Shown here: positions 2,707-19,115 of the stretch, piece by piece
How the letters are laid out: every line of letters begins with the position of its first letter
Numbering within the stretch: the first letter of the stretch is position 1
Source of the DNA: a virus
Virus record (IMG/VR): IMGVR_UViG_3300025674_000249
Coordinates: 1-29,886 of that record
DNA length: 29,886 nucleotides
Strand: one strand, 5' to 3'
Translations under genes and position numbers: made by a program
Notes under the pieces: model-generated
Told to the model about the DNA's origin: nothing
Databases searched by the model: none
What the model saw: the letters and a program-made list of their open reading frames with translations, nothing else

Positions 2707-5700
2707 TTAAGGCGCAAAACCTATTGAAGATTTAGTTTTAATCTTTGGTTTTTCACTTACACTTTTTTTATTATCTTTTGGCATTATCTGCCACTCAGGC
2801 CAACCAGCTATCATAGCTACAGTCTGCCACCATTCTGCTTCTTCACTCATTGCTGCTTCTAAATTGTTGTACTTAGATAAAACTCTATCAAGAGGCACGT
2901 TAGTAACAGCTGATATAACTTTTGCAGACGCTTCATAAGCTGGATTATCTATATCAAACGGGCCCATTTCCATTATTTGTTTTCTTCTTTTCTTACTGTC
3001 TAATTGCCACGCTGCTTGTCTTAGTCTAGATATTTTAGAACTAATAGGCGGTGAAAATTGTAACAACTTCCAAACAGAGTCAGTATATTCAGGTCTTTTT
3101 CTTTTTGATCTTTCATATATATCTAGCAAGAAATTTTTAACAGTAGCTATTGCTACACCACCAATACCTAAACCTCTAATTGTAGAGTCAATCATACCAC
3201 CTGCTATATCAAAGTATTTTTTATCTTTCTTTTCTTCTTCATCATCAGCTCCTAATGCAAATATAGCTTGCTGTAACGCATTAAATATTAAATTCTGTAC
3301 TACAGCATAATAAATTATTTTAGATACATTAGATTTAGCATCTCCTCTACGGTTAATTAAATCTTGAAAAGCTCTTTTTTGTAACCTAGCATATTGCATA
3401 GGTGTGTTTTGAAAAGCTAATATTAAACGACCTGCATCACTAGCTTGTTGAGAAGATATTTTACTAGGATCAGAAGATTGCTGCGACTGTTCAGCTACAT
3501 CTCTCCATTCTACTAAAGCTTCAGCTTCTGCTTGTTTTAAGGACATGTTTGTATTACGTTTCATTAAGTCTTTAACTTTATTTCTATACCAAGTAGCACC
3601 ACCAGAAGCAATAGCAAAACTATCAGCAATCTGTGTGGGCGCATATCCTTTACTTAAAATGTAACTTATAGCTGACTTAGCTTTATTTTTTCCTGTTTTA
3701 GCAGCATTAGCTATTTCACTTTCAGATATATTTATTCTTAAACCATTACGCCTATCTTTTAAATAATCTGAGTTCATTAATGTTTTAAAATCTTTCCAAT
3801 ATTGTGGTTGATTAGCAAAAGCTTTACCAGCATTATAAGGATTGTTAAAACTCCAATTTATAAAGTTAATAGCTGATATAGTTTGTAGTATAGCAGATCT
3901 AGCATTTAAGAACATAACAACACCTGTAGCATTGTTAATATAATCAAGCATCCTATTACTAAGCCTGTTACCACTAAACAACCTATTTTTACCTTGCTTC
4001 ATACGCATTATAGAATTACGTAAAGCTTCGACATATCTAGGTCCATATATAGCTTCTAGTTTGTTTAAGTTTTTATCACTGAATATTAAGTCTACATTAT
4101 CAGTCCAACCTTGCTCTTTTAATAACCTAGATCTTACACTTGTATTTAAAGTATCAATTAAATCTGTAGTAACAGTTCCAGCTAACCAACTTTCACCTGG
4201 TTTAGCGTATTCAGATCCTTTAGTTAGTGTAATTAATTCGTCTCTAAATAATTTTAAGTTCTTATTATTTTCTACAATATCGTTTAATTCTTTTTGATCA
4301 GCTTTAGATAATCCATCTATTTCATAACCTAGCTTACTCCAAACAGATACTCTAACCGCTTGCTCATTAGAAAAGCCAGACTCATTTGTTTGCTGTAAAT
4401 CTTTAGGTATATTTAAAGCTTTTTTCAATGCTCTAAAATCATCTAATAAGTTTACTCTAGCAGCAGCTAAACTATTCATAGCTCTAGTATAAGGTTGTAA
4501 CAAATGCTCTTTAAACCAAGCCATTTGTGTATCACCTTCCTTACCTTTGCCTAGCAGTTTATATATTAAACCTTGAAAATCTTCTGCTGAATAAGGAATC
4601 CAAAATTTACCTTTACCTTTGCTAGCTCCTATTGTTTTAGCTTTAGCAGCTGAATATTCTTTTTGTCTGCCTATTCCAAAATTGTTTTCTATTATTTTAT
4701 TAAAGTCTTCATCTACATTTTCACTAAATTTAAATTTAGCTTGTTGCACTTTAGACTTAACATCAATAACACTTAAAGCATCTCTTACAGCTTTTACATT
4801 TTGATATGCATCATCTGCAAAATAAAAATCATTATATCCTTTAGCTGCTTGCTCAACTATCCATTTAGCTTTTGCAGCTCCAGTAGAATTACCTAAGCCT
4901 ATTATATTTTTCTTTTTAAATTCTAAACCTTCTGCTTTCAAAAAGTCGTATATAGCTTGCTGCGACTCAGGTGCTCTAGCAGTTAATACAAATAAGTCTT
5001 CATTACCTCTAGCGTCTTTTATAGCTTGAGCTACTTTAAACAAAGGACCACGACCACCATCAGTTACTCTATTAAAATCACTAAAGTCCATTGTATAACC
5101 TTCTTCTTTTAATTCTAATCCTCGCTCTGCAAACTCTTCTGCATTAAGTTTTATTTCCTCATCACCTCGTTTGGCTATTACGATGTTGTTACTAGTGGCT
5201 AGTGTATCATCAAAGTCAAATACTCTTATCTTTTTAACAGGTGCATTAGGATCACGAGCAAATTTCAATGCTTCATCTATAGTTCCAGCTAAATTAATTA
5301 CATCTTCATTGCTAAGCTCTTCGCTCATTTTAAATACGTTGTTACTTAAATCAACGTCGTTAACAGCTTTAGCTTCTTCTGTAGCATTCCATATGTTAGT
5401 TTCTTCTGTACCTATAGTTTCACCTTCAACTACATCAAGTAGTTCATGTACTTCACCGCCTCTAGTAAACTCATTATACCATCTAGTCGTAGGCATATCA
5501 CCTATTTTATAGTTAAAAGGCATACGAGATTTAAAAAACCTACCAAAGTTATCGTTAAACTCTACACTAATAACACCAACACTATATGTATCTTGTAATT
5601 TTTTAAGATCTATTTTTGTATTATCATTAAGTACAGCATCTGCTATAGCTAAATTAACTATTACAGCTGGAATACCATGCTCATACTCAAAAGCTTTTTT

Positions 5701-8700
5701 ACCATCAGGTCTAGTTAGTTTTTTGTACTTAGCATTTACAGGTAAATATCTTAATTTCGCTGCTGCTCTTATAGGTCCTTTCATATTAGCACCCATACCA
5801 GCAGATAACATGAATAAGTTTTCTTTAGTAGGATTAGCTTTTTTAGCTCCTTCATATATTTCTACTACAAAGTTAAAAGCTCTATCAGCATCTTTAGCTC
5901 TCCTATCTAATTCTTCTTTTGATATAGTACCATCAACCATTTGCTGAGTAGTCTTCTGAGCTTCACGTCTAGGTGATTTTACCTTTTCACTTGTGCCATC
6001 TTTAAATTTAAACTCTACTTCTCCTGTTTTATTTATGTTTTTAATTTCAACTATAGGATTTTCTGTAGTAGAAAAAACAGGTGCGATAAATTCGTCTATA
6101 AAAACTTTAACATGACTACCTCCAGTTTCACTAAAGAAAGTCATAGATCTTCCTGGATTAGCACTTCCATCTTCTAACATAGCTTTATAATGCCAAAACT
6201 TAGCAGCTAAATCTAAAGGATTTTTATAATTAGCTTTCATTATGTTAGCTACTGTTTTTACAAAAGGCCTTTGTTTTGTAATAGCTTGTTCAGCAAATAT
6301 TTTAGCACCATTTTTTAAACCATAAAAATCTGCATATCTATCTATCGTATCATCAGTTAATACTTCGTTTATATAGGTATCTAAATCTATTTTAACAGCT
6401 TTATATTTAGCAGTTTGCTTAGCATAAGGTCTTAGTATTTTATCAAAATAATTTACTACAGCTGCTTTTTGTTTTAAGTCAGGATAATTACCATCAAATA
6501 AATCTCCTATTAAAGCCTTTCTTTCTGCATCATCTAAAGGTATACCTTGATTTTTAGCTACATCAACTATAGATTTAATAAAAGTATCTTGACCTGTTAC
6601 AAACTTCTGATAATTTTCTGCTGAAAGTTTAGAAGATATTTCTTCTGATAGTTTAGCATCTAAACCTTGATCCGTTATTTTACCAAACATTTGTAGCATA
6701 TTTTCTAATGGGATCCAATTAAGATCTGGATTATTATTAGAAAATATTTCTATTACCTTTGCTTTATCTTGACCAACTTCTCCTTTTAATGCTTGCATCG
6801 TAGCATTTTCACCTAGCTTTGCAGCTATAGCTTTTGCCAAGGCATTATCTCTACCACGTTTCAAAAAGAACTCTGATATTTGTTCAGGTGAAGGATCTAA
6901 TCTTTTATATAAAGTAGGTCCAGATGTAGGGTTAATATAAACTAAATCAGCTTTTCTACCAACAGATAACGCAGCGTTAATTTCACTAGGGCTCATATCT
7001 TTTTTCTCAGCAACAGCAAATATTTTATCTTTAGATAATCTTTCAAAAGCTACTAAAGTGTTTATATCTAAACTAAGTATAGCTTTTTTATTATTTTCTA
7101 GCCAAGACTTGTAGTTAGGTTTCTTAATAGTGTTTTTAACTTCTTTAAACATTTCAGTATCAAAATCACTATTTAATTGTTGTCTAATACTTTTATAAGC
7201 TTTATTTACTTGAGCAATAGCTTTAGAGTTTGTAGGTTGTTTAGCTAGTTCTAATATTTCAGCGTTTAAACCTTTTACTTTAGGTTTAAAAGTAGATAAT
7301 ACTTTTTTAGTTTTATCTAATATAAAGTTATATAAGTCGCTACCTTCTTTTATATCTGCTAATTGTCTTAAGTTTAAATCAACTGTTTTATCTGCTTCAG
7401 CTCTAGTATCTGCTATATCAAAAGCTCTACCGCCTTCTCGTTGCTGACCTATTCTAGTTGCAGCTTTTGGCCCTTCTGATTTAGCTACTCGCTTTGCACC
7501 AGTACCAACTTTAGCTTTTAAATATGTACCTATGTAACCAGCTAAGTCTGTATTAGTAGCAGGATTAAAAGCTTCAATATGTTTTATTAAAGGTTGATAA
7601 CCAGCTACAGCTTTATCTACATCACCTTTAGCTATAGCTAACATGTCTGGATAATAATCCACTAGTATCTCACCTAAATCACTTTTACCTTCTGGTGTTT
7701 GTACAAATTCTTTAAACTCCTGTTTTGTTTTAGGAGCTTTATCATAAAGTTTTTTTACATTTGTATCTCTTCTATCTCTACGTTTAGCTTTTTCTTCAGG
7801 GGTTTCTGAAACAGACTCTTTAATAGGTGACTGTGCTTGTTTTACCTTAGTAGCTAATTCTATAGCAGCTGTCTCACTAGTTTTTTCTTCAATAGCTTTT
7901 ATAACAGGTGACTGTCTAGCTTCTTGTATATCTCTTTCTGTTATGTCGCCTCTTTTTATTTTAGTAGCTAATGTTGCTAAAAAACTAATAGCATCGTTTT
8001 TACCTTTTAAATTTAAAGCAAAATTATTAGAAGTGTTTTTCTGCATCATGTCAGAAGCCATATAAGAAAAATATGCTGCTAACTCTTTATCTTGTAACCT
8101 ATCAAAGTTTAATCTGTCAGCTGAGACTTCTTCTAAAAATTCTACAACAACTTCTTCTGCGCCTCTTTTTCTATCAGCTAACTTATCACTAGTTAATAAA
8201 TTAACTCCAGCTTGTGTAGTTAATCTTTTAAATACAGCAGGGTTATTAACTTTTGTCCACTCTAAAACAGACTTAGCCATATCAGTAAAGTCAGCATCTC
8301 TGCTTTGAAGTATCTCTTGAAATACTTGATGTCCAGGTTCATGTATAGTTATCTCAGTCTTTTCATTAGCTACAGCATTTTCCATTATAGCGTAGTTAGT
8401 ATTACCAACTTGAAAACCATTTAATCTACCTGAATTTATTTTCTTTTCTATAGTCTTAGCGTCTTGTATAGATGTAGTTTCTTCTGATGCAGCTATATTA
8501 AACTCTTCATCTACTAATCTATTAACTTCATCTATCGCATCTTGTTTAGTTTCTAATACAATAGTTTTAAAATTATTACTAGCTTTGTTAGACTGATCTA
8601 TTCTGTCTTGTATTTCTTCTCTTACATATATATCATATGCAGCTGCATTTATATCTTTATTGTCTGGTTGAAAGTCAGGAGCTTTATTTTTATCTACTCG

Positions 8701-11430
8701 TAATTTAGTAATAGCTTCTTGTTTTATTCTTTCATATCTAGCTTTTTGTTTTTCATTACCAGAACTTAACAAAACAAATTCATTGCCAAAAGCATCTTCA
8801 TCTCTCCAAAGATCTCTAGCATACTGTATATTATCAAACTCTTGTTTAAGAGCTTTTAATTCATTTTGTTTTTCTTGTTGATTTTTTATAGTTTTATCAT
8901 TAACTATAGCAGAAGCTTGTGATCTTATTTCTTCTTGTCTTCTAGTAGCATCAGTGTACATGTTAAAAGCTTTAGGTGAAAGCTTATTGTTAACATTGTA
9001 ATCTACTTTATTAATGTTGTTTTCAATTTGTTTATCTAAACTTATTATTTGATCTTTATAAGATCTTCCAATCGCAGTACGACCATCTACCTTATCTAGC
9101 TTAGCTTTAAGAACGTTTCTTTGATCCGCTAAATCTCTAGTCTCTTTCCATTTTTTATGATCAGAAAACGCTGTTAAAGTGTGCCCATATACTAAAGGTC
9201 CACCTCCTAAAAACACACTAAACATACCAGAAGTAAACGCAGTATGGCCTGTATTTGTTAGTATAGGTCTACCATCTAAAGCGTTTTGTCCCCAGGTAGT
9301 ACCTACTTCTCCAGCCATATCTATAGCTGGTTCATATATTACATTTTTTCTAAGTGTACCATTAGTCCAAGCATTTTTAAAACCATCTTTCCAGTTTAAT
9401 AATCCTCTAGTACTAGCTGTACCTATTGAGTTTACACTGTTTCTTAATATTTTAGCAGTAGGTAAAGTACCTAATGTGCCGTCAAGTACACCGTATCCTG
9501 TACTTACAAACCACTTTTCTATACCAGAAGGATTATAATTAGGATCAGTAGCTTCTGTTACATCAAACTCTGCAAGTCTTTCACCAGCACTATATGTACC
9601 AATAGTAAGAGCAGGTAAAACTGCAGAGCCAGTACCACCAGTAGCTACCATAGCAGCTAGTATAGGTAGTTGTGTACCTACTTCTTGATTGACAAATCTA
9701 CCAAACCTATTGAAATCAAATTCTCCGTTTTTATCTTTGAAACTGCCAAATGAAACATCTTTAGCTAATACTTTTCTGCGCTCTTGATCTTTTTTAAATC
9801 TTTCTACTTGCCAATCAGTCAAGTCTTTCTGTAACATATCTCCGGCTAAACCTGTTAGTCCGCCTTGTAGTTGCATAACCTCACTAGCTGCTCTTCCTCC
9901 ATAATACACAATACCTGAACCAATAGATTCTAAACCTTTTACAAAATTATAAGTAAACTTATTTACATTACTATAATCTCTACCATATAAATCCATTTTA
10001 GTATTTAAGTCTGTAACTTCTTCTGTTAATGTATTTATTTCTTTATCTCTTTTCTGTAAAACAACTAACTTATTGTTTACGTTTGACTGAGCTTCTATGT
10101 AGTCGTTGTATAATTTTTCACCTATTATTTTGCCATTATTAAGCTTAATAGTTTTTTCTCCTTCTTCAGGAATAAACTCTTGTGTTGGATCTGATAAAAT
10201 TTCATTTACATAATTAACTAGCATTAAGTCTGGATTTTTACTTTCATTTAAAAAGTTGTTCATTTCCATTTCTTGTACAGCTAGTAATTCACCAGTCTTT
10301 TTTACTTTCTTATCTTTACTTTTTGCACCATATACATTTAACTTAGCTACTTCAGATGATGATAGTTCTTCTAAATAATCCTGCAAGTTACTGTCTTGCA
10401 TTTTATATGTCATATCAGCACCTATTATTTGTTTAGCTTTATTTTGTATTTGTTCTTTTGTAGGTGCAGGGAGTTGATCGCTTGGTGATCGTTGAGAGTT
10501 TAAGTAAGCTGTTTCTTTGTTTAAAATATCTTCTGCTTGAGCTAATTCATTTTCATATGGTTGAATAGTTTTTTCTACTCTTCTACTGCCACTTATAGCA
10601 GTACCAGTTCCACTATCTATTAATCCAGTTGAAACAGTTTCCATTTTTGTATACGGCTTAAACAACTCTTCATTAGGCTTTTTAGTTATGCTTTGTATTT
10701 CAGACTGTTGATAACCTGAAAGACTAATAGCTTCATCAGCTTCTTTAGCTAGCTTAGAAGTTACTTCATCTGGTTTATATTCTTTCGTTCCACCGTGTTT
10801 GTTGACAAAGCCTCTAATATCTGACTTAAAACTTTTACTTTTAGGATCTAATTCTATTTTGTCTCCTGTTTTATCATCTGTAAAAGATAAGTTAAACTGT
10901 GGCAGTGGTTGTGGACCATCAGGTCCATAATCATATTCATAAGTAGTATAGTCTTTAGCAGTAAAACCTGGATAAGCTTCATTAAGCATTACAGCCATTT
11001 TATCTTTACTAGCATTAGAAAACTGTACATCATCTACATTATCCATCCAAGTATGAGCATCATCTAACTTTATAGCTTCTTCAGTTGTCTCTTTCATTTT
11101 AGCTTCACGAACTATTTGAGACATACTTTTATTTACTTTAGGCTTTTCATTTGCTATACGATTATCTAAATCAGCTAGTCGCGTGTTATCTCTTTGAGTT
11201 TGAATTTTAGTTTCTTCATCTTGAGCATTGTCAACTGCGTCTTTAGTTTCTTCTCCAGAGAATATAGGTGCTTCTTGCTTTTTAGCAGGTGGATCTGTAG
11301 TAATGCCTTTATCTTCCATGTATGTTTGAGCGTCAGGGTAACCAAAATGTTTTGACGCTTCTTCTACTTGACTATAAGTGGCTTCTACTACTTCACCTTT
11401 TGAATTAGTGTAGTAATAAATATCATTCAT
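2707..11430 (-). CDS. Giant multidomain virion protein, probably ejected into the host (2907 aa)
   Basis: Last gene of the virion operon, in the position of the largest podoviral ejection protein. Visible regions in order: a polar N-terminus; Gly/Ala-rich hydrophobic segments at about 500-525, 583-612 and 732-753; coiled-coil-like stretches at about 770-870; a zinc-metallopeptidase-like HEPGH at 1030-1034 with Glu-rich EEVVVEFLEE about 65 residues later; a basic linker near 1210-1230; a conserved-looking block with YEHGIPAV near 1917; a HAD-phosphatase-like domain starting at DFDDT (2072-2076), with VLTAR as second motif and FADD as the acidic motif; and a C-terminal part with hydrophobic segments at about 2490-2525, 2705-2728 and 2742-2770. 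I recall the HAD and C-terminal blocks from marine phage virion proteins. Its start overlaps the upstream stop (ATGAATGA). Peptidase and phosphatase activity are inferred from motifs only. I found no RNA polymerase motif. Confidence 0.85.
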   Translation of the reverse strand: MNDIYYYTNSKGEVVEATYSQVEEASKHFGYPDAQTYMEDKGITTDPPAKKQEAPIFSGEETKDAVDNAQDEETKIQTQRDNTRLADLDNRIANEKPKVNKSMSQIVREAKMKETTEEAIKLDDAHTWMDNVDDVQFSNASKDKMAVMLNEAYPGFTAKDYTTYEYDYGPDGPQPLPQFNLSFTDDKTGDKIELDPKSKSFKSDIRGFVNKHGGTKEYKPDEVTSKLAKEADEAISLSGYQQSEIQSITKKPNEELFKPYTKMETVSTGLIDSGTGTAISGSRRVEKTIQPYENELAQAEDILNKETAYLNSQRSPSDQLPAPTKEQIQNKAKQIIGADMTYKMQDSNLQDYLEELSSSEVAKLNVYGAKSKDKKVKKTGELLAVQEMEMNNFLNESKNPDLMLVNYVNEILSDPTQEFIPEEGEKTIKLNNGKIIGEKLYNDYIEAQSNVNNKLVVLQKRDKEINTLTEEVTDLNTKMDLYGRDYSNVNKFTYNFVKGLESIGSGIVYYGGRAASEVMQLQGGLTGLAGDMLQKDLTDWQVERFKKDQERRKVLAKDVSFGSFKDKNGEFDFNRFGRFVNQEVGTQLPILAAMVATGGTGSAVLPALTIGTYSAGERLAEFDVTEATDPNYNPSGIEKWFVSTGYGVLDGTLGTLPTAKILRNSVNSIGTASTRGLLNWKDGFKNAWTNGTLRKNVIYEPAIDMAGEVGTTWGQNALDGRPILTNTGHTAFTSGMFSVFLGGGPLVYGHTLTAFSDHKKWKETRDLADQRNVLKAKLDKVDGRTAIGRSYKDQIISLDKQIENNINKVDYNVNNKLSPKAFNMYTDATRRQEEIRSQASAIVNDKTIKNQQEKQNELKALKQEFDNIQYARDLWRDEDAFGNEFVLLSSGNEKQKARYERIKQEAITKLRVDKNKAPDFQPDNKDINAAAYDIYVREEIQDRIDQSNKASNNFKTIVLETKQDAIDEVNRLVDEEFNIAASEETTSIQDAKTIEKKINSGRLNGFQVGNTNYAIMENAVANEKTEITIHEPGHQVFQEILQSRDADFTDMAKSVLEWTKVNNPAVFKRLTTQAGVNLLTSDKLADRKRGAEEVVVEFLEEVSADRLNFDRLQDKELAAYFSYMASDMMQKNTSNNFALNLKGKNDAISFLATLATKIKRGDITERDIQEARQSPVIKAIEEKTSETAAIELATKVKQAQSPIKESVSETPEEKAKRRDRRDTNVKKLYDKAPKTKQEFKEFVQTPEGKSDLGEILVDYYPDMLAIAKGDVDKAVAGYQPLIKHIEAFNPATNTDLAGYIGTYLKAKVGTGAKRVAKSEGPKAATRIGQQREGGRAFDIADTRAEADKTVDLNLRQLADIKEGSDLYNFILDKTKKVLSTFKPKVKGLNAEILELAKQPTNSKAIAQVNKAYKSIRQQLNSDFDTEMFKEVKNTIKKPNYKSWLENNKKAILSLDINTLVAFERLSKDKIFAVAEKKDMSPSEINAALSVGRKADLVYINPTSGPTLYKRLDPSPEQISEFFLKRGRDNALAKAIAAKLGENATMQALKGEVGQDKAKVIEIFSNNNPDLNWIPLENMLQMFGKITDQGLDAKLSEEISSKLSAENYQKFVTGQDTFIKSIVDVAKNQGIPLDDAERKALIGDLFDGNYPDLKQKAAVVNYFDKILRPYAKQTAKYKAVKIDLDTYINEVLTDDTIDRYADFYGLKNGAKIFAEQAITKQRPFVKTVANIMKANYKNPLDLAAKFWHYKAMLEDGSANPGRSMTFFSETGGSHVKVFIDEFIAPVFSTTENPIVEIKNINKTGEVEFKFKDGTSEKVKSPRREAQKTTQQMVDGTISKEELDRRAKDADRAFNFVVEIYEGAKKANPTKENLFMLSAGMGANMKGPIRAAAKLRYLPVNAKYKKLTRPDGKKAFEYEHGIPAVIVNLAIADAVLNDNTKIDLKKLQDTYSVGVISVEFNDNFGRFFKSRMPFNYKIGDMPTTRWYNEFTRGGEVHELLDVVEGETIGTEETNIWNATEEAKAVNDVDLSNNVFKMSEELSNEDVINLAGTIDEALKFARDPNAPVKKIRVFDFDDTLATSNNIVIAKRGDEEIKLNAEEFAERGLELKEEGYTMDFSDFNRVTDGGRGPLFKVAQAIKDARGNEDLFVLTARAPESQQAIYDFLKAEGLEFKKKNIIGLGNSTGAAKAKWIVEQAAKGYNDFYFADDAYQNVKAVRDALSVIDVKSKVQQAKFKFSENVDEDFNKIIENNFGIGRQKEYSAAKAKTIGASKGKGKFWIPYSAEDFQGLIYKLLGKGKEGDTQMAWFKEHLLQPYTRAMNSLAAARVNLLDDFRALKKALNIPKDLQQTNESGFSNEQAVRVSVWSKLGYEIDGLSKADQKELNDIVENNKNLKLFRDELITLTKGSEYAKPGESWLAGTVTTDLIDTLNTSVRSRLLKEQGWTDNVDLIFSDKNLNKLEAIYGPRYVEALRNSIMRMKQGKNRLFSGNRLSNRMLDYINNATGVVMFLNARSAILQTISAINFINWSFNNPYNAGKAFANQPQYWKDFKTLMNSDYLKDRRNGLRINISESEIANAAKTGKNKAKSAISYILSKGYAPTQIADSFAIASGGATWYRNKVKDLMKRNTNMSLKQAEAEALVEWRDVAEQSQQSSDPSKISSQQASDAGRLILAFQNTPMQYARLQKRAFQDLINRRGDAKSNVSKIIYYAVVQNLIFNALQQAIFALGADDEEEKKDKKYFDIAGGMIDSTIRGLGIGGVAIATVKNFLLDIYERSKRKRPEYTDSVWKLLQFSPPISSKISRLRQAAWQLDSKKRRKQIMEMGPFDIDNPAYEASAKVISAVTNVPLDRVLSKYNNLEAAMSEEAEWWQTVAMIAGWPEWQIMPKDNKKSVSEKPKIKTKSSIGFAP

Positions 11431-14322: not shown

Positions 14323-14332
14323 ATAATATAAT
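14323..14332. repeat. Two pentanucleotide repeats before the cupin gene start
   Basis: On the coding strand the spacer after the preceding stop region reads (ATTAT)2 directly followed by ATG. It is the shortest of the three ATTAT leaders. Two copies could arise by chance in AT-rich DNA; only the similarity with the two longer leaders and the same placement make it notable. Confidence 0.55.
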
Positions 14333-16041
14333 TAAAATCCATTGGAATTAACATAATCTGATCTAGTAGACCAAAGTTGTTTAGTTCCACCTAATTGTGT
14401 AGTGTTATCTGTTTTAAACTTAACAGTAGCTACAAAGCCTCTTATACCTGTTATTTGATTACCAAATGATACTTCGTTTGGCATAGCTGTAGAGTTAGAA
14501 ACTATATTAGCTACATAAATATTTTCCTTCCTATTAAAGCCAGCATTTAAAGTTTGACCAGTAATAGGATCTACATATTTTCCTTCTTCATAACTTTTGA
14601 CAGATAGAGTTTGATCTTGATTTTCTACATATGTACCAGCCGGCAATTGATTAACTCCCGTAAAGTCAGAAACAAAAGACTCTACTTCCCAACCACTACT
14701 ACCTTCATATCCCACAGTTTTAAAGTTTTTTACTAAACTTGGCTGTACATTAAATACACAAGTTATTGTAGAAGGACTAGCTGTTCCGTAAAATGTGTTT
14801 CTAGTATTAACTACCTCTGAATAGTGTTTAAATAAACCTACTTCTTGAGTAGTAAAATAATTATTTTTTACAGAGAAAATTGTTTCTGGTTTATAAGTAT
14901 AAAAACTTACCCACCCATTTACCTTATCATCAAATGCTAGTGTTTGAAAATTTTCTGTTTTAGATTTTAATAATGGAGATTCTTGCAAGGACACAATATA
15001 ATTTCTATTATGAACATCCCAGCCTCCTTTTACTTTGCCATTTTCAGAATATTCAAACTTAACTTTAACACTAAGATCTGTAACAAAAGGTAGTGAATAA
15101 AATATTTTTACAGCACTTGGAGTAGAAGCATCGATTTGAGTTATATAACCTGGGTTACTTGGAATTGTCATACCTGTTGAAGGTATTGGCGTTACTCCAG
15201 TAAGATTTAAAGTTAAAGTCATGTCTCCAATATTACCACCACTTGACACTGTAAAATTTCCTGTAGCTGGGATGCTGTATGCTGTGTTAGTATCTTTTAC
15301 TTTAGCTAACTCATCTCTAAAATAATCTTCCATACCATAAGCACTAATCTCAGTAAGACCATCATTAGATAATCTCAATATAGCATTTCTGTTTCTATCA
15401 GAAAAATATTTTCTATAACCATAAGTTGCTAAAGACTCTGGATTTTTACTAATACCATAAACTCCTTTGTAAGGTACAAACTGACCTATAACGGCGGCAC
15501 CTGACTGAGTTTGAGTACCACTTTCCGTGGTATATATAGTGTCTTTATCTATTAACGCTCTACTAATTTTGTTTTCCTGAAACACAACCATGTTAGTATC
15601 TTCGGCTAAAGTGCGCTGTATAGTTCCATTCTCAGGATCTAAGGACTTAGTAATGTCTGTACCAGTAGAAAACACATTTGTGTTATTAATACCTGTTCTA
15701 GAGTTGTATATACCAGAATAAATTAATGTATTAAACCTATGTTGTTGTAGCGGAAATGGATCATCTAAAAAAGCTCTAACACCTTTATCTATACTAACAG
15801 CATTAAAATCACCTCTTATTCTAGATTCTTCTATGTAAAAATTAGAATAAAATCCTTCTATTCTATCTTGATTTGTTCCACTCGATCCAATGGTAAGATC
15901 AATACCGCCAGGCCAGCATATTCCAGGGCCTAATGCCATATGTCTATTAGGATTAGAGTTTGTCCTACCATTCAATGATTGACTATAAGTCTGCTTAATT
16001 AAATAAGTGTTATTAAAATCTACTTCTATTACTGCTGACAT
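14332..16041 (-). CDS. Tail structural protein following the nozzle gene (569 aa)
   Basis: A beta-rich, Asn/Thr/Ser-rich protein lacking transmembrane segments. The first 290 residues hold blocks I remember from marine phage tail proteins: EESRIRGDFNAVSIDKGVRA, QQHRFNTLIYSGIYNSRTG, EDTNMVVFQENKISRALI and GISKNPESLATYGYRKYF. The remainder looks like stacked beta domains. In some phages I recall these blocks at the C-terminal end of the same protein that carries the nozzle-like start, so this may be the second half of a split tail protein. It lies 11 bases downstream of that gene in a different frame, with its own ATG and an A/T-rich leader. A host-contact role cannot be excluded. Confidence 0.7.
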   Translation of the reverse strand: MSAVIEVDFNNTYLIKQTYSQSLNGRTNSNPNRHMALGPGICWPGGIDLTIGSSGTNQDRIEGFYSNFYIEESRIRGDFNAVSIDKGVRAFLDDPFPLQQHRFNTLIYSGIYNSRTGINNTNVFSTGTDITKSLDPENGTIQRTLAEDTNMVVFQENKISRALIDKDTIYTTESGTQTQSGAAVIGQFVPYKGVYGISKNPESLATYGYRKYFSDRNRNAILRLSNDGLTEISAYGMEDYFRDELAKVKDTNTAYSIPATGNFTVSSGGNIGDMTLTLNLTGVTPIPSTGMTIPSNPGYITQIDASTPSAVKIFYSLPFVTDLSVKVKFEYSENGKVKGGWDVHNRNYIVSLQESPLLKSKTENFQTLAFDDKVNGWVSFYTYKPETIFSVKNNYFTTQEVGLFKHYSEVVNTRNTFYGTASPSTITCVFNVQPSLVKNFKTVGYEGSSGWEVESFVSDFTGVNQLPAGTYVENQDQTLSVKSYEEGKYVDPITGQTLNAGFNRKENIYVANIVSNSTAMPNEVSFGNQITGIRGFVATVKFKTDNTTQLGGTKQLWSTRSDYVNSNGF

Positions 16042-16052
16042 AATTTTTAAAT

Positions 16053-19000
16053 TTATGAACTTACTGCATCATCACTATCAGGTGGATCTGGAGCTGTACC
16101 ACTAGCACCTGTTCCTGTTGCTATTTGAACATTTAAATCGCTTACTAATCCTGAACACGCAGTTTCGTAATATATTTGTATTTCAGATTTAGGTGGCTCT
16201 ACTTCCATTACGTTTAATCTAAGATCAGAGCTGATAAACGATGTATTAACGTATGTTGGGTTTACTACTGGCACACCTATGTTTCTACCATTTGTATTCA
16301 TTTTAAAACCTATAGGATCTTGCTGGGCATTCACAAAACCAACGCCTGTTAGTGGTGTACTAGCGGCTAAGTCTAAAGCTTTTAAATCTGTTAGTTTAGC
16401 AGAAAAAACACCTGTTACAAACGGATTACTTTTATCAGCTGTAGTATTAGACACATAAAAATTATTAGTTACTACTGTACTCGAGCCAATAGCCATAGTA
16501 GATTGTACTCTTGGAAACAACTTAGTAGTATTAGGGGCAAACAATTGTTGGTTAGGTTCTGTTTCAGATAAATCTGCTGGTACTTTATTTATATTACTAC
16601 CAAATAAACTAGCATAAGATAATGAAGTCCTAAATAAACCTTGTTCTAGTAAAGTACCTGTACTATCTTTTTGATCTTTAAAACCTCCTTGTATAACATT
16701 ACCTAAATAAGCATTGTAATACTCGTCTTCTAGTTGCTTAATTACAACTTTATAGCTATAAAAACCTAACGGATTAGCTTCGCCAACTACATTATAAACT
16801 GTGCCAATAGAACCTATACTTGGTGGCGTTGGGCTTAAAGTTATGTTAGCTGTTGGAGATGCAGGGTAAGTAGGATAAGATATAGAAACAGCTGACATTG
16901 CATAATCAACACCTCCTATAGTAATAATGTCTCCAACTTCAGGGTTTTCACTAAAGTTTGTTATACCAAAACTACTTCCAATAAGTGAAGAGGTTACAGT
17001 CGCCGTGTAGCTACCTGTCTTATATAAACCTGGATAACCATCCGCGTAAGACACACTATTAGGTATTACAGATCTAAACAAAACTTTAATTGAATCACCA
17101 AACCACCTGTTTATACGGTTAACTTGCGCTCTTCCTGTTGAAAAATATTTATGAAAAACTGTATCACCGCCATAACTACCACCAGCATAACTAAATTGAT
17201 TAGCGTCTGCATCTGATAAAATTACATCTGTTTGTCTTCCGTATCGATCTGCTAGTATTATACCTATTTGATAAGTTCTATTTTGTTTTACACTAGCCGT
17301 AGGATGTTTAACTAATAAATTAGCAGGATTTTTAGGAAGACCTGAAGAGTCTTCTCTTGAATTTAATTTAGCGCTAATTTCCACATTGTAACTCAAAGCT
17401 TCAGGTGGAGTATGCTTATTTAAAAAATTACCATAAACAACTCTATTGCCAGTAACAGATTGAGTCTTAGCTCTAATAGGTACTCTATCAAACACTCTAA
17501 CTAACTGTGCTTCTGTAATAGGTAGTTTTGGTTCATTAGAGTTGTAGTTATATGTAAATGTATTAGTTGAATTAGAAGTAATTCTAGTATCAGTTCTAGG
17601 TATAGTTTCTAATATTCTTACAGCTAAAGTATCTGACTCTTTATAAAGTATGTCTATTTCTTCTATTTTTAAATTATCATATAGAGTATTTACAGCAAAA
17701 GGAGTCTGTATATTTAAATCAACTACATTAACACTGTTTTCAAAAAAATCTACAACAGTACTTCTAGCTATATTTTCATAACCTCTTTCTACATTTGTTT
17801 GACCAGTAGTAGCTGTAGTACCATCATATAATTGATTAATATCTACAATGTGTCCATTCTGTTTAGGTACGAAAGCAGGGCTAGTAAACGGAGCTATTAA
17901 AGAATATTCGCCATCTTCAAATTTAAATCTATAACTAAACCTAACAAACTTATCTCTTAAATATTCTGTATCACCTGAAAAGTTAGATAAATATTGAGAG
18001 TTAGAATCGGCAAAATAAACTAAAGCATTATAGTTTGTTGCTGGTGGAAGATTTTCAAAAGCTTCTCGCATTTCTGTTAATCCACCACCTGTAGTTTTAA
18101 CAGTGGCACTATTGTCTCCTAAAACATAACCAGGTAACTCAGTTATTGTTATAACAGACTTTGTTCTACTATTAAACACACGCATGCTTGGGTACAAATT
18201 TCCAGATAAATTACTCACAGTAAAATCTATAGTAGAGCCAACAGTGGCGGGAGAACCTGCAGTACCAAATACTGTAGCTTCTGTAAATCTATCTGAAACG
18301 TTTTTAGATCCAGTTTCTAGTATGGTTAAAGTAGTAGCTGTAGGATCTGTCTCATCAAGATCTTGATTTAGTGTAAAAGTTCTAGCACTAGCTGACGTAC
18401 TTTGTATAATGCAAGGCGTTGATTGAGTATTTGTGTTAGGCATTTTAACAAATTGCCCTTGTCTTATTTTAGCATAATCTGCAGCACTTAAAGTAAAAGG
18501 TCCAGGCCCAGTCAACGTACCACTTAGTACAGTAACAGTAAATTCATTAACTAAACTTATAGGATTATAAGGATTATATTTTGCTACCGATATATTATCT
18601 TCTGTTGTGTAATGAGTAGAACTAGCTAAAGCTTTATCTACGTTTATTCTTCTTGGCTGGTTTCTATCATCAGTCCAAAATAATAAATCTTCAATTAAAT
18701 CTACATTAAGTATAGGGTGAGTAATAGAAAAATTTAAAAACCTACCTTCTACTAATGTATGAGTACTATTATTTGTAAAGTCTCTCATTATTATTGTATG
18801 AGTAGAACCTTTACCTGCAAAATTACTTAATCTATCACTCGAATTATCATAGTGATCTGTTATATAAAAAAATCCTCTTTCTTTACTTTGATCAATATAC
18901 TGACCTATAACTTGCTTATTGTCATATATTGTACTCGTAATTAGATTAGTTACTAATTCATTTCCTAACACATTTTCAACAGAACCTACATCATCACCTT

Positions 19001-19115
19001 CAGATCTACTTACATTAATATTCTGAGCATCTCTGTACTCGCCTTTACCTACTAGCCTTTCGTCTAAGTCTTTGTTCATCTTAGACTTGATAAATATATT
19101 TTTCGCTAATGCCAT
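16053..19115 (-). CDS. Nozzle-like tail tube protein (1020 aa)
   Basis: Probably forms the tail nozzle below the neck rings, the role of T7 gp12 or crAss-like nozzle proteins. The N-terminus has the block KSKMNKDLDERLVGKGEYRD followed by AQNINVSRSEGDDVGSVENV (residues about 11-48), which I recognise as the start of such proteins in marine phages. The next 150 residues continue in propeller-like repeats (DLIEDLLFWTDDRNQPRRIN near 120-140). Two Thr/Ser/Pro-rich beta stretches look inserted, at about residues 190-280 and 702-775. The C-terminus is Gly/Ala/Pro/Asp-rich and probably disordered. The start lies four bases after the preceding stop. The protein is slightly longer than T7 gp12 (about 800 residues), consistent with the insertions. 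Confidence 0.75.
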   Translation of the reverse strand: MALAKNIFIKSKMNKDLDERLVGKGEYRDAQNINVSRSEGDDVGSVENVLGNELVTNLITSTIYDNKQVIGQYIDQSKERGFFYITDHYDNSSDRLSNFAGKGSTHTIIMRDFTNNSTHTLVEGRFLNFSITHPILNVDLIEDLLFWTDDRNQPRRINVDKALASSTHYTTEDNISVAKYNPYNPISLVNEFTVTVLSGTLTGPGPFTLSAADYAKIRQGQFVKMPNTNTQSTPCIIQSTSASARTFTLNQDLDETDPTATTLTILETGSKNVSDRFTEATVFGTAGSPATVGSTIDFTVSNLSGNLYPSMRVFNSRTKSVITITELPGYVLGDNSATVKTTGGGLTEMREAFENLPPATNYNALVYFADSNSQYLSNFSGDTEYLRDKFVRFSYRFKFEDGEYSLIAPFTSPAFVPKQNGHIVDINQLYDGTTATTGQTNVERGYENIARSTVVDFFENSVNVVDLNIQTPFAVNTLYDNLKIEEIDILYKESDTLAVRILETIPRTDTRITSNSTNTFTYNYNSNEPKLPITEAQLVRVFDRVPIRAKTQSVTGNRVVYGNFLNKHTPPEALSYNVEISAKLNSREDSSGLPKNPANLLVKHPTASVKQNRTYQIGIILADRYGRQTDVILSDADANQFSYAGGSYGGDTVFHKYFSTGRAQVNRINRWFGDSIKVLFRSVIPNSVSYADGYPGLYKTGSYTATVTSSLIGSSFGITNFSENPEVGDIITIGGVDYAMSAVSISYPTYPASPTANITLSPTPPSIGSIGTVYNVVGEANPLGFYSYKVVIKQLEDEYYNAYLGNVIQGGFKDQKDSTGTLLEQGLFRTSLSYASLFGSNINKVPADLSETEPNQQLFAPNTTKLFPRVQSTMAIGSSTVVTNNFYVSNTTADKSNPFVTGVFSAKLTDLKALDLAASTPLTGVGFVNAQQDPIGFKMNTNGRNIGVPVVNPTYVNTSFISSDLRLNVMEVEPPKSEIQIYYETACSGLVSDLNVQIATGTGASGTAPDPPDSDDAVSS

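Follow-up and report, generated by a model that had tools for sequence, protein, structure and literature searches.

A predicted HAD phosphatase domain in the giant, probable virion protein of uncultured marine phages of the flavobacterial group

The healing and sealing of broken nucleic-acid ends requires a polynucleotide kinase, a 3'-phosphatase and a ligase. In phages it is an expressed function, in which T4 Pnkp and RNA ligase answer the cleavage of tRNA by the host. The Pnkp1 RNA-repair complex (PMC4411300) is a cellular assembly that also contains RNA ligase and methyltransferase. Polyvalent proteins (Iyer et al. 2017, PMC5512222) have been proposed to enter the host together with the DNA; in a word search of the main text of that paper, the terms 'phosphatase', 'polynucleotide kinase' and 'PNK' did not occur.

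In the present study, we analysed a 29.9-kb stretch of viral DNA (29,886 nucleotides, hereafter the window). Its terminase and portal share 33-67% identity with those of Flavobacterium (Elemovirus), Cellulophaga, Tenacibaculum and Maribacter phages and of the environmental phage MW202828; judged by these two proteins, the window is a phage of the flavobacterial group. A giant open reading frame of 2,907 aa (2707..11430, complementary strand, as are all features of this protein given below) closes the structural operon. Its residues ~2062-2235 (4726..5247) very probably constitute a HAD phosphatase whose active site is intact.

Active site and predicted fold of the HAD domain

The domain was delimited by a match to phrog_415, by an AlphaFold2 model and by Foldseek searches of PDB and BFVD. 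The motifs that a sequence-only reading had picked out are all present at these positions and in HAD order. Motif I, DxDx[TV] in the superfamily, reads D2072-F-D2074-D-T2076 (5203..5217) and holds the predicted nucleophile and acid/base aspartates. Motif II is V2148-L-T2150-A-R2152 (4975..4989), with the expected threonine and an invariant LTAR; motif III is represented by the lysine K2187 (4870..4872), and the acidic, metal-binding pair of motif IV by D2206-D2207 in GYNDFYFADD (4810..4815). The conserved last strand and linker, DVKSKVQQAK, covers residues 2223-2232 (4735..4764). The AlphaFold2 model, built from an 82-sequence alignment, reached pLDDT 82 and pTM 0.72, and has the alternating beta/alpha, Rossmann-like core of a HAD with the squiggle and flap after strand 1. 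In this model the flap beta-hairpin follows directly on motif I, at residues 2083-2096 (5143..5184; strands 2083-2088 and 2091-2096 by DSSP). The flap hairpin of HAD enzymes is the site where C1 caps are inserted. The motifs, the profile matches, the predicted fold and the unvarying catalytic residues all agree, and the assignment to the HAD phosphatases, first made from the motifs, is upheld.

Searched as a whole, the 2,907-aa protein gave nothing significant in Pfam, and a single family in PHROGs, phrog_415 'polynucleotide kinase', at residues 2063-2235 (E 3.3e-5). The excised domain matched phrog_415 with an E-value of 5.7e-7, and so did all 32 members (best 1e-10). T4 PseT itself matched phrog_415 at 3e-24 and phrog_505 at 1e-125. 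Among Pfam families, DUF2608 was matched by 28 of the 32 members (best E 8e-7) and HAD by 15. Tests for membership among the PNKP 3'-phosphatases gave the phrog_415 match and stayed below the curated cut-offs elsewhere: TIGR01664 (DNA 3'-phosphatase) was matched by 20 of the 32 members at sub-cutoff scores, with 16.4 bits for the window copy against 107.65, and PNK3P by one member, at E 0.012. Furthermore, the counterparts of T4 Pnkp R176 and D254, which we take to be essential residues, are missing; by spacing from the motifs, I2083 and T2183 stand in their places. Because these residues are not conserved, the scores stay under the curated cut-offs and no kinase is present in the window copy, the family is labelled here 'HAD superfamily, PNKP-like' and not as a member of PNK3P.

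In the Foldseek search of PDB, the top match was a weak one, to a chain of the RNA-repair Pnkp1 complex (TM-score 0.48). It was followed by generic HAD phosphatases, including the Legionella proteins Ceg4 and Lem4 and a deoxyribonucleotidase-like protein; HADs dominated the matches, with TM-scores of at most 0.5. In BFVD, which holds viral models, large uncharacterised proteins of uncultured viruses came first and then many proteins named polynucleotide kinase/phosphatase. When PDB was searched by sequence, neither the single domain nor two profiles gave a significant match. Since the PDB scores are modest, the predicted model establishes the superfamily and not the substrate.

The proposal of a polynucleotide 3'-phosphatase, which the sequence-only reading had added, has indirect and partial support: the profiles, the match to the Pnkp1 complex, the nested kinase of 34 relatives and the ligase described below speak for it, and the unconserved R176 and D254 speak against it. 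The lower matches in PDB would also suit a phosphatase of small nucleotides, which at the start of infection would destroy a host alarm nucleotide or serve nucleotide supply. The conserved ribonucleotide reductase gene next to the giant ORF (~82% identity) fits such a role, and enzymes degrading signal nucleotides have been proposed for polyvalent proteins (PMC5512222, PMC7824862). However, the best similarities in PHROGs, NCBIfam and PDB folds are all to polynucleotide phosphatases, and a nested kinase partner is better explained by end healing; we consider the small-nucleotide explanation unlikely.

The giant protein and the position of the domain

Homologues of the giant ORF are about 2,200-3,600 aa long. 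Its gene comes last in the structural operon, and in phi38:1, phi13:2 and the elemo phages this position is taken by genes that carry the annotation 'structural protein' or 'virion structural protein'. Among Cellulophaga phages, proteins homologous to the N-terminal parts of the relatives have a virion-structural annotation. The N-terminal parts of the giant proteins of relatives are homologous to phi13:2 gp127 and phi46:3 gp120 (about 1e-16) and to the giant protein of MW202828 (9e-19); the window protein itself has a single weak match, to phi38:1 gp101 (3.6e-5). From this homology and gene position, the giant protein is probably a component of the virion and probably enters the host with the DNA. 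It also carries a HExxH motif, H1030-E-P-G-H1034 (8329..8343), whose H1030, E1031 and H1034 are invariant in 18 diverse giants, and E1093 (8152-8154), 59 residues further on and conserved in at least 90% of the 18, is a possible third ligand. Together they form a candidate zincin-like metallopeptidase that could process the giant protein, as would be expected of a self-processing polyvalent protein. A weak LPD23 match was obtained in one of the 18 giants (E 8e-4), and no Pfam LPD domain was found in the window protein.

The whole-protein alignment shows a sharp conservation boundary. Residues 1-2050 have roughly 5-24% identity per 50-residue block, and the HAD domain and the ~650 residues after it about 50-70%. 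The C-terminal module (residues 2246-2907, ~660 aa; 2710..4695), delimited by the conservation profile, AlphaFold2 and Foldseek, is all-helical in the model, is among the most conserved parts of the giant protein together with the HAD domain, and has matches in more than 560 viral contigs. Foldseek found no known fold or family for its model, and its identification as a known ejection protein was rejected for want of a fold match.

The surroundings of the giant gene are mosaic as well. The first ~2,050 residues of the protein (window 5280-11430) and the next upstream gene (562 aa) are hypervariable, in contrast to the adjoining convergent ribonucleotide reductase gene at 482-2344, which is conserved in 58 loci, and the boundary is sharp. 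Elsewhere in the window, two adjoining genes on the complementary strand, 14332-16041 and 16053-19115 (569 and 1,020 aa), match different parts of phrog_14478, a 1,474-aa virion protein family, and are an apparent gene split.

A first scan of IMG/VR returned 217 relatives, all viral contigs, which bears out the statement of the sequence-only reading that the domain occurs in other marine phage virion proteins. In each of the 80 that were fetched, the HAD domain lies inside the giant ORF, and where the 3' end is complete, 836-1,085 residues separate its start from the C-terminus. All its occurrences found were in giant proteins, and these belong without exception to uncultured marine phages that are relatives of the Cellulophaga and Flavobacterium podoviruses. 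Searches by tblastn with the whole protein and with the domain gave no match in cultured phages, and the domain and the C-terminal module are both absent from the giant proteins of phi13:2, phi38:1, phi46:3, Gundel_1, elemoF and MW202828, the cultured relatives searched. Contigs of this phage family were also met in bins assigned to Ilumatobacteraceae, Bacteroidetes, Aliivibrio, Woesearchaeota and Clostridiales (L091, L092, L094-L096, L097-L099); these are probably phage contigs wrongly binned.

D2072, D2074, T2076, T2150, R2152, K2187, D2206 and D2207 are invariant in the 79 closest relatives (79/79), and in the 198 non-redundant homologues with a readable sequence at the six catalytic positions, all six are kept. 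A motif set kept in all of these is not a product of chance. The dN/dS ratio of close pairs is 0.02-0.15; with the invariant catalytic positions, this places the HAD domain, at the level of sequence comparison, under purifying selection for its active site.

The 214 non-redundant giant proteins comprise 159 with the HAD domain alone, 34 with HAD and a nested kinase, two with HAD and a kinase elsewhere in the protein, seven with only a degenerate HAD tail, 11 without HAD, and one in which a kinase replaces it. The domain has thus been lost in 19 (seven remnants and 12 absences, one of these with the kinase in the slot), and 18 have neither a full HAD nor any kinase. Since 19 of the 214 manage with its loss, the domain is, by this survey, not essential everywhere. 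Loss is all-or-none: the catalytic residues vanish together, the nucleophile is retained in every intact domain, and an inactive site in an otherwise intact domain was never found. In the proteins whose HAD is not intact, the position before the helical C-terminus is taken by unrelated sequence or by a kinase. Judged from these alignments, it looks like a cargo slot with swapped contents, of which HAD is the commonest.

Conservation along with the C-terminal module, at a level far from that of the upstream residues, and the persistence of HAD tail remnants after the rest is lost would also fit a structural or assembly domain, kept because it folds against that module and for which catalysis is irrelevant. 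Such a role is very improbable in our estimate: the six catalytic residues are unchanged in 198 domains, a dead site in an intact fold is never seen, and the slot is refilled by unrelated sequence or kinase in some relatives.

The remnants (GYNDFYFKNN and similar) stand just before the C-terminal module in L100-L103 and L105-L107; the nucleophile region and the metal pair are gone and the tail persists. In nine other loci (L070, L071, L073, L078, L080, L093, L133, L207, L243), an extra DUF6934-like domain of ~130 aa lies between HAD and the C-terminus, and the HAD-end linker (DVKSKxQ) recurs in a second copy that brackets it. In L100-L103 and L170, the DUF6934-like domain is found upstream of the HAD remnant or in place of HAD.

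Nested kinase and ligase

In two relatives (L095, L096), a stretch of ~200 residues containing GGPGAGKT interrupts the HAD domain where the flap hairpin turns. The insertion point of this P-loop kinase in relatives lies between residues 2090 and 2091, and the window's own protein has no kinase. The frequency of 34 nested kinases among 214 non-redundant relatives is inflated, because one of the scans used a kinase-bearing protein as query; a scan with the C-terminal module, which is blind to HAD, gave 11 of 80. In 33 records, matches to AAA_33 are confined to the giant ORF. Because of this confinement, the kinase, when these phages have it, is by its profile matches in the same polypeptide as HAD or in the HAD slot. 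The two enzymes are a textbook pair, but their combination with the kinase inside the phosphatase flap appears not to have been reported before: neither this arrangement nor a polynucleotide kinase within any polyvalent or ejected protein was found in the literature searched.

The insert of L095 and L096 matched AAA_33 (3.7e-17), Zeta_toxin (1.4e-13) and phrog_505 polynucleotide kinase (3.4e-13). The Zeta_toxin match raises the alternative that kinase and HAD act as a pair on a sugar or a protein, such as a zeta-toxin-like kinase that phosphorylates cell-wall precursors and a phosphatase that undoes or completes its reaction. Zeta-like kinases have been reported in polyvalent proteins (PMC5512222), and the effector HADs Ceg4 and Lem4 are among the structural neighbours. 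However, a profile of 19 kinase domains found 4gp7/4jst first in PDB (4.5e-6), ahead of zeta toxin (1.6e-4). We take these entries to be the Pnkp kinase of Clostridium thermocellum. Furthermore, 17 of the 19 domains matched TIGR04075 (bacter_Pnkp) against four for PezT, and BLASTP aligned the insert to the T4 PseT kinase (E 5e-7) with the positions of T4 D35 and R126 conserved. A pair acting on sugar or protein is therefore quite improbable.

An ATP-dependent DNA-ligase profile matched 25 of 31 near-complete genomes. The ligase is also present in a 36.5-kb contig, which is in effect the same phage as the window, because the 15.3 kb over which the two sequences overlap are 99.8% identical. Its link to HAD and kinase is suggestive. 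Three genomes with degenerate HAD lack the ligase, yet it is present in one record without HAD, and the comparison is obscured by contigs that are not complete; a clean co-occurrence of HAD and ligase was rejected on these grounds. RNA ligase was also considered as the partner: PF09414 was found in two of the 31 records, both times at sites that match the DNA-ligase profile too.

Proposed role and comparison with known systems

The explanation that we favour, and hold to be somewhat probable, is a virion-delivered phosphatase of nucleic-acid ends, that is, of polynucleotide end healing. The HAD domain in front of the helical C-terminus would occupy an exchangeable enzymatic slot of a giant virion protein of the polyvalent type, and would reach the inside of the cell together with the DNA or before it. 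As a Mg-dependent and catalytically intact phosphatase, it would remove 3'-phosphates from nucleic-acid ends. These may be nicks and ends made in the incoming genome by host nucleases, or tRNA and other RNA ends made by antiviral RNases, and the phage ligase would then seal what has been healed. The other half of the end-healing pair, the 5'-OH kinase, would in many relatives be nested in the flap hairpin of the phosphatase.

A bolder version is tentative and, in our opinion, somewhat doubtful: that the virion carries an end-healing enzyme, in many members with the kinase nested in the phosphatase at its cap position, and that this enzyme is delivered with the genome and repairs DNA or tRNA ends before phage gene expression as a pre-emptive counter-defence. 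If this is true, virion-borne end healing would act before the first transcript, at the time of greatest exposure for the one genome that has come in. Marine viral contigs often contain the family, while the phage records searched do not, so that it offers a testable question in an abundant group.

Compared with described families, the nearest in Pfam by sequence is DUF2608 (PF11019), a family without function, in which the window copy scores 22.0 bits against a gathering threshold of 22.6. The Pnkp1 RNA-repair complex, a Flavobacteriia enzyme, has the top fold match in PDB and the pairing of kinase and phosphatase in common with the phage family, and differs in being cellular and in giving no sequence match. 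The phosphatase domain of T4 PseT has the same order of HAD motifs: its D165/D167, S211/R213, K258 and D277/D278 correspond to D2072/D2074, T2150/R2152, K2187 and D2206/D2207, R2152 being aligned in position with R213. R176 and D254 of T4 PseT are without counterpart in the window HAD. A PNK-like kinase is common to T4 PseT and the relatives of the window protein; it is N-terminal in the former, nested in the HAD flap in the latter and absent in the window. Unlike T4 PseT, the window HAD is embedded in a giant protein of ~2,900 aa, which resembles the polyvalent proteins (Iyer et al. 2017, PMC5512222) in its giant multi-domain build, its HExxH peptidase motif and its exchangeable enzymatic domains.
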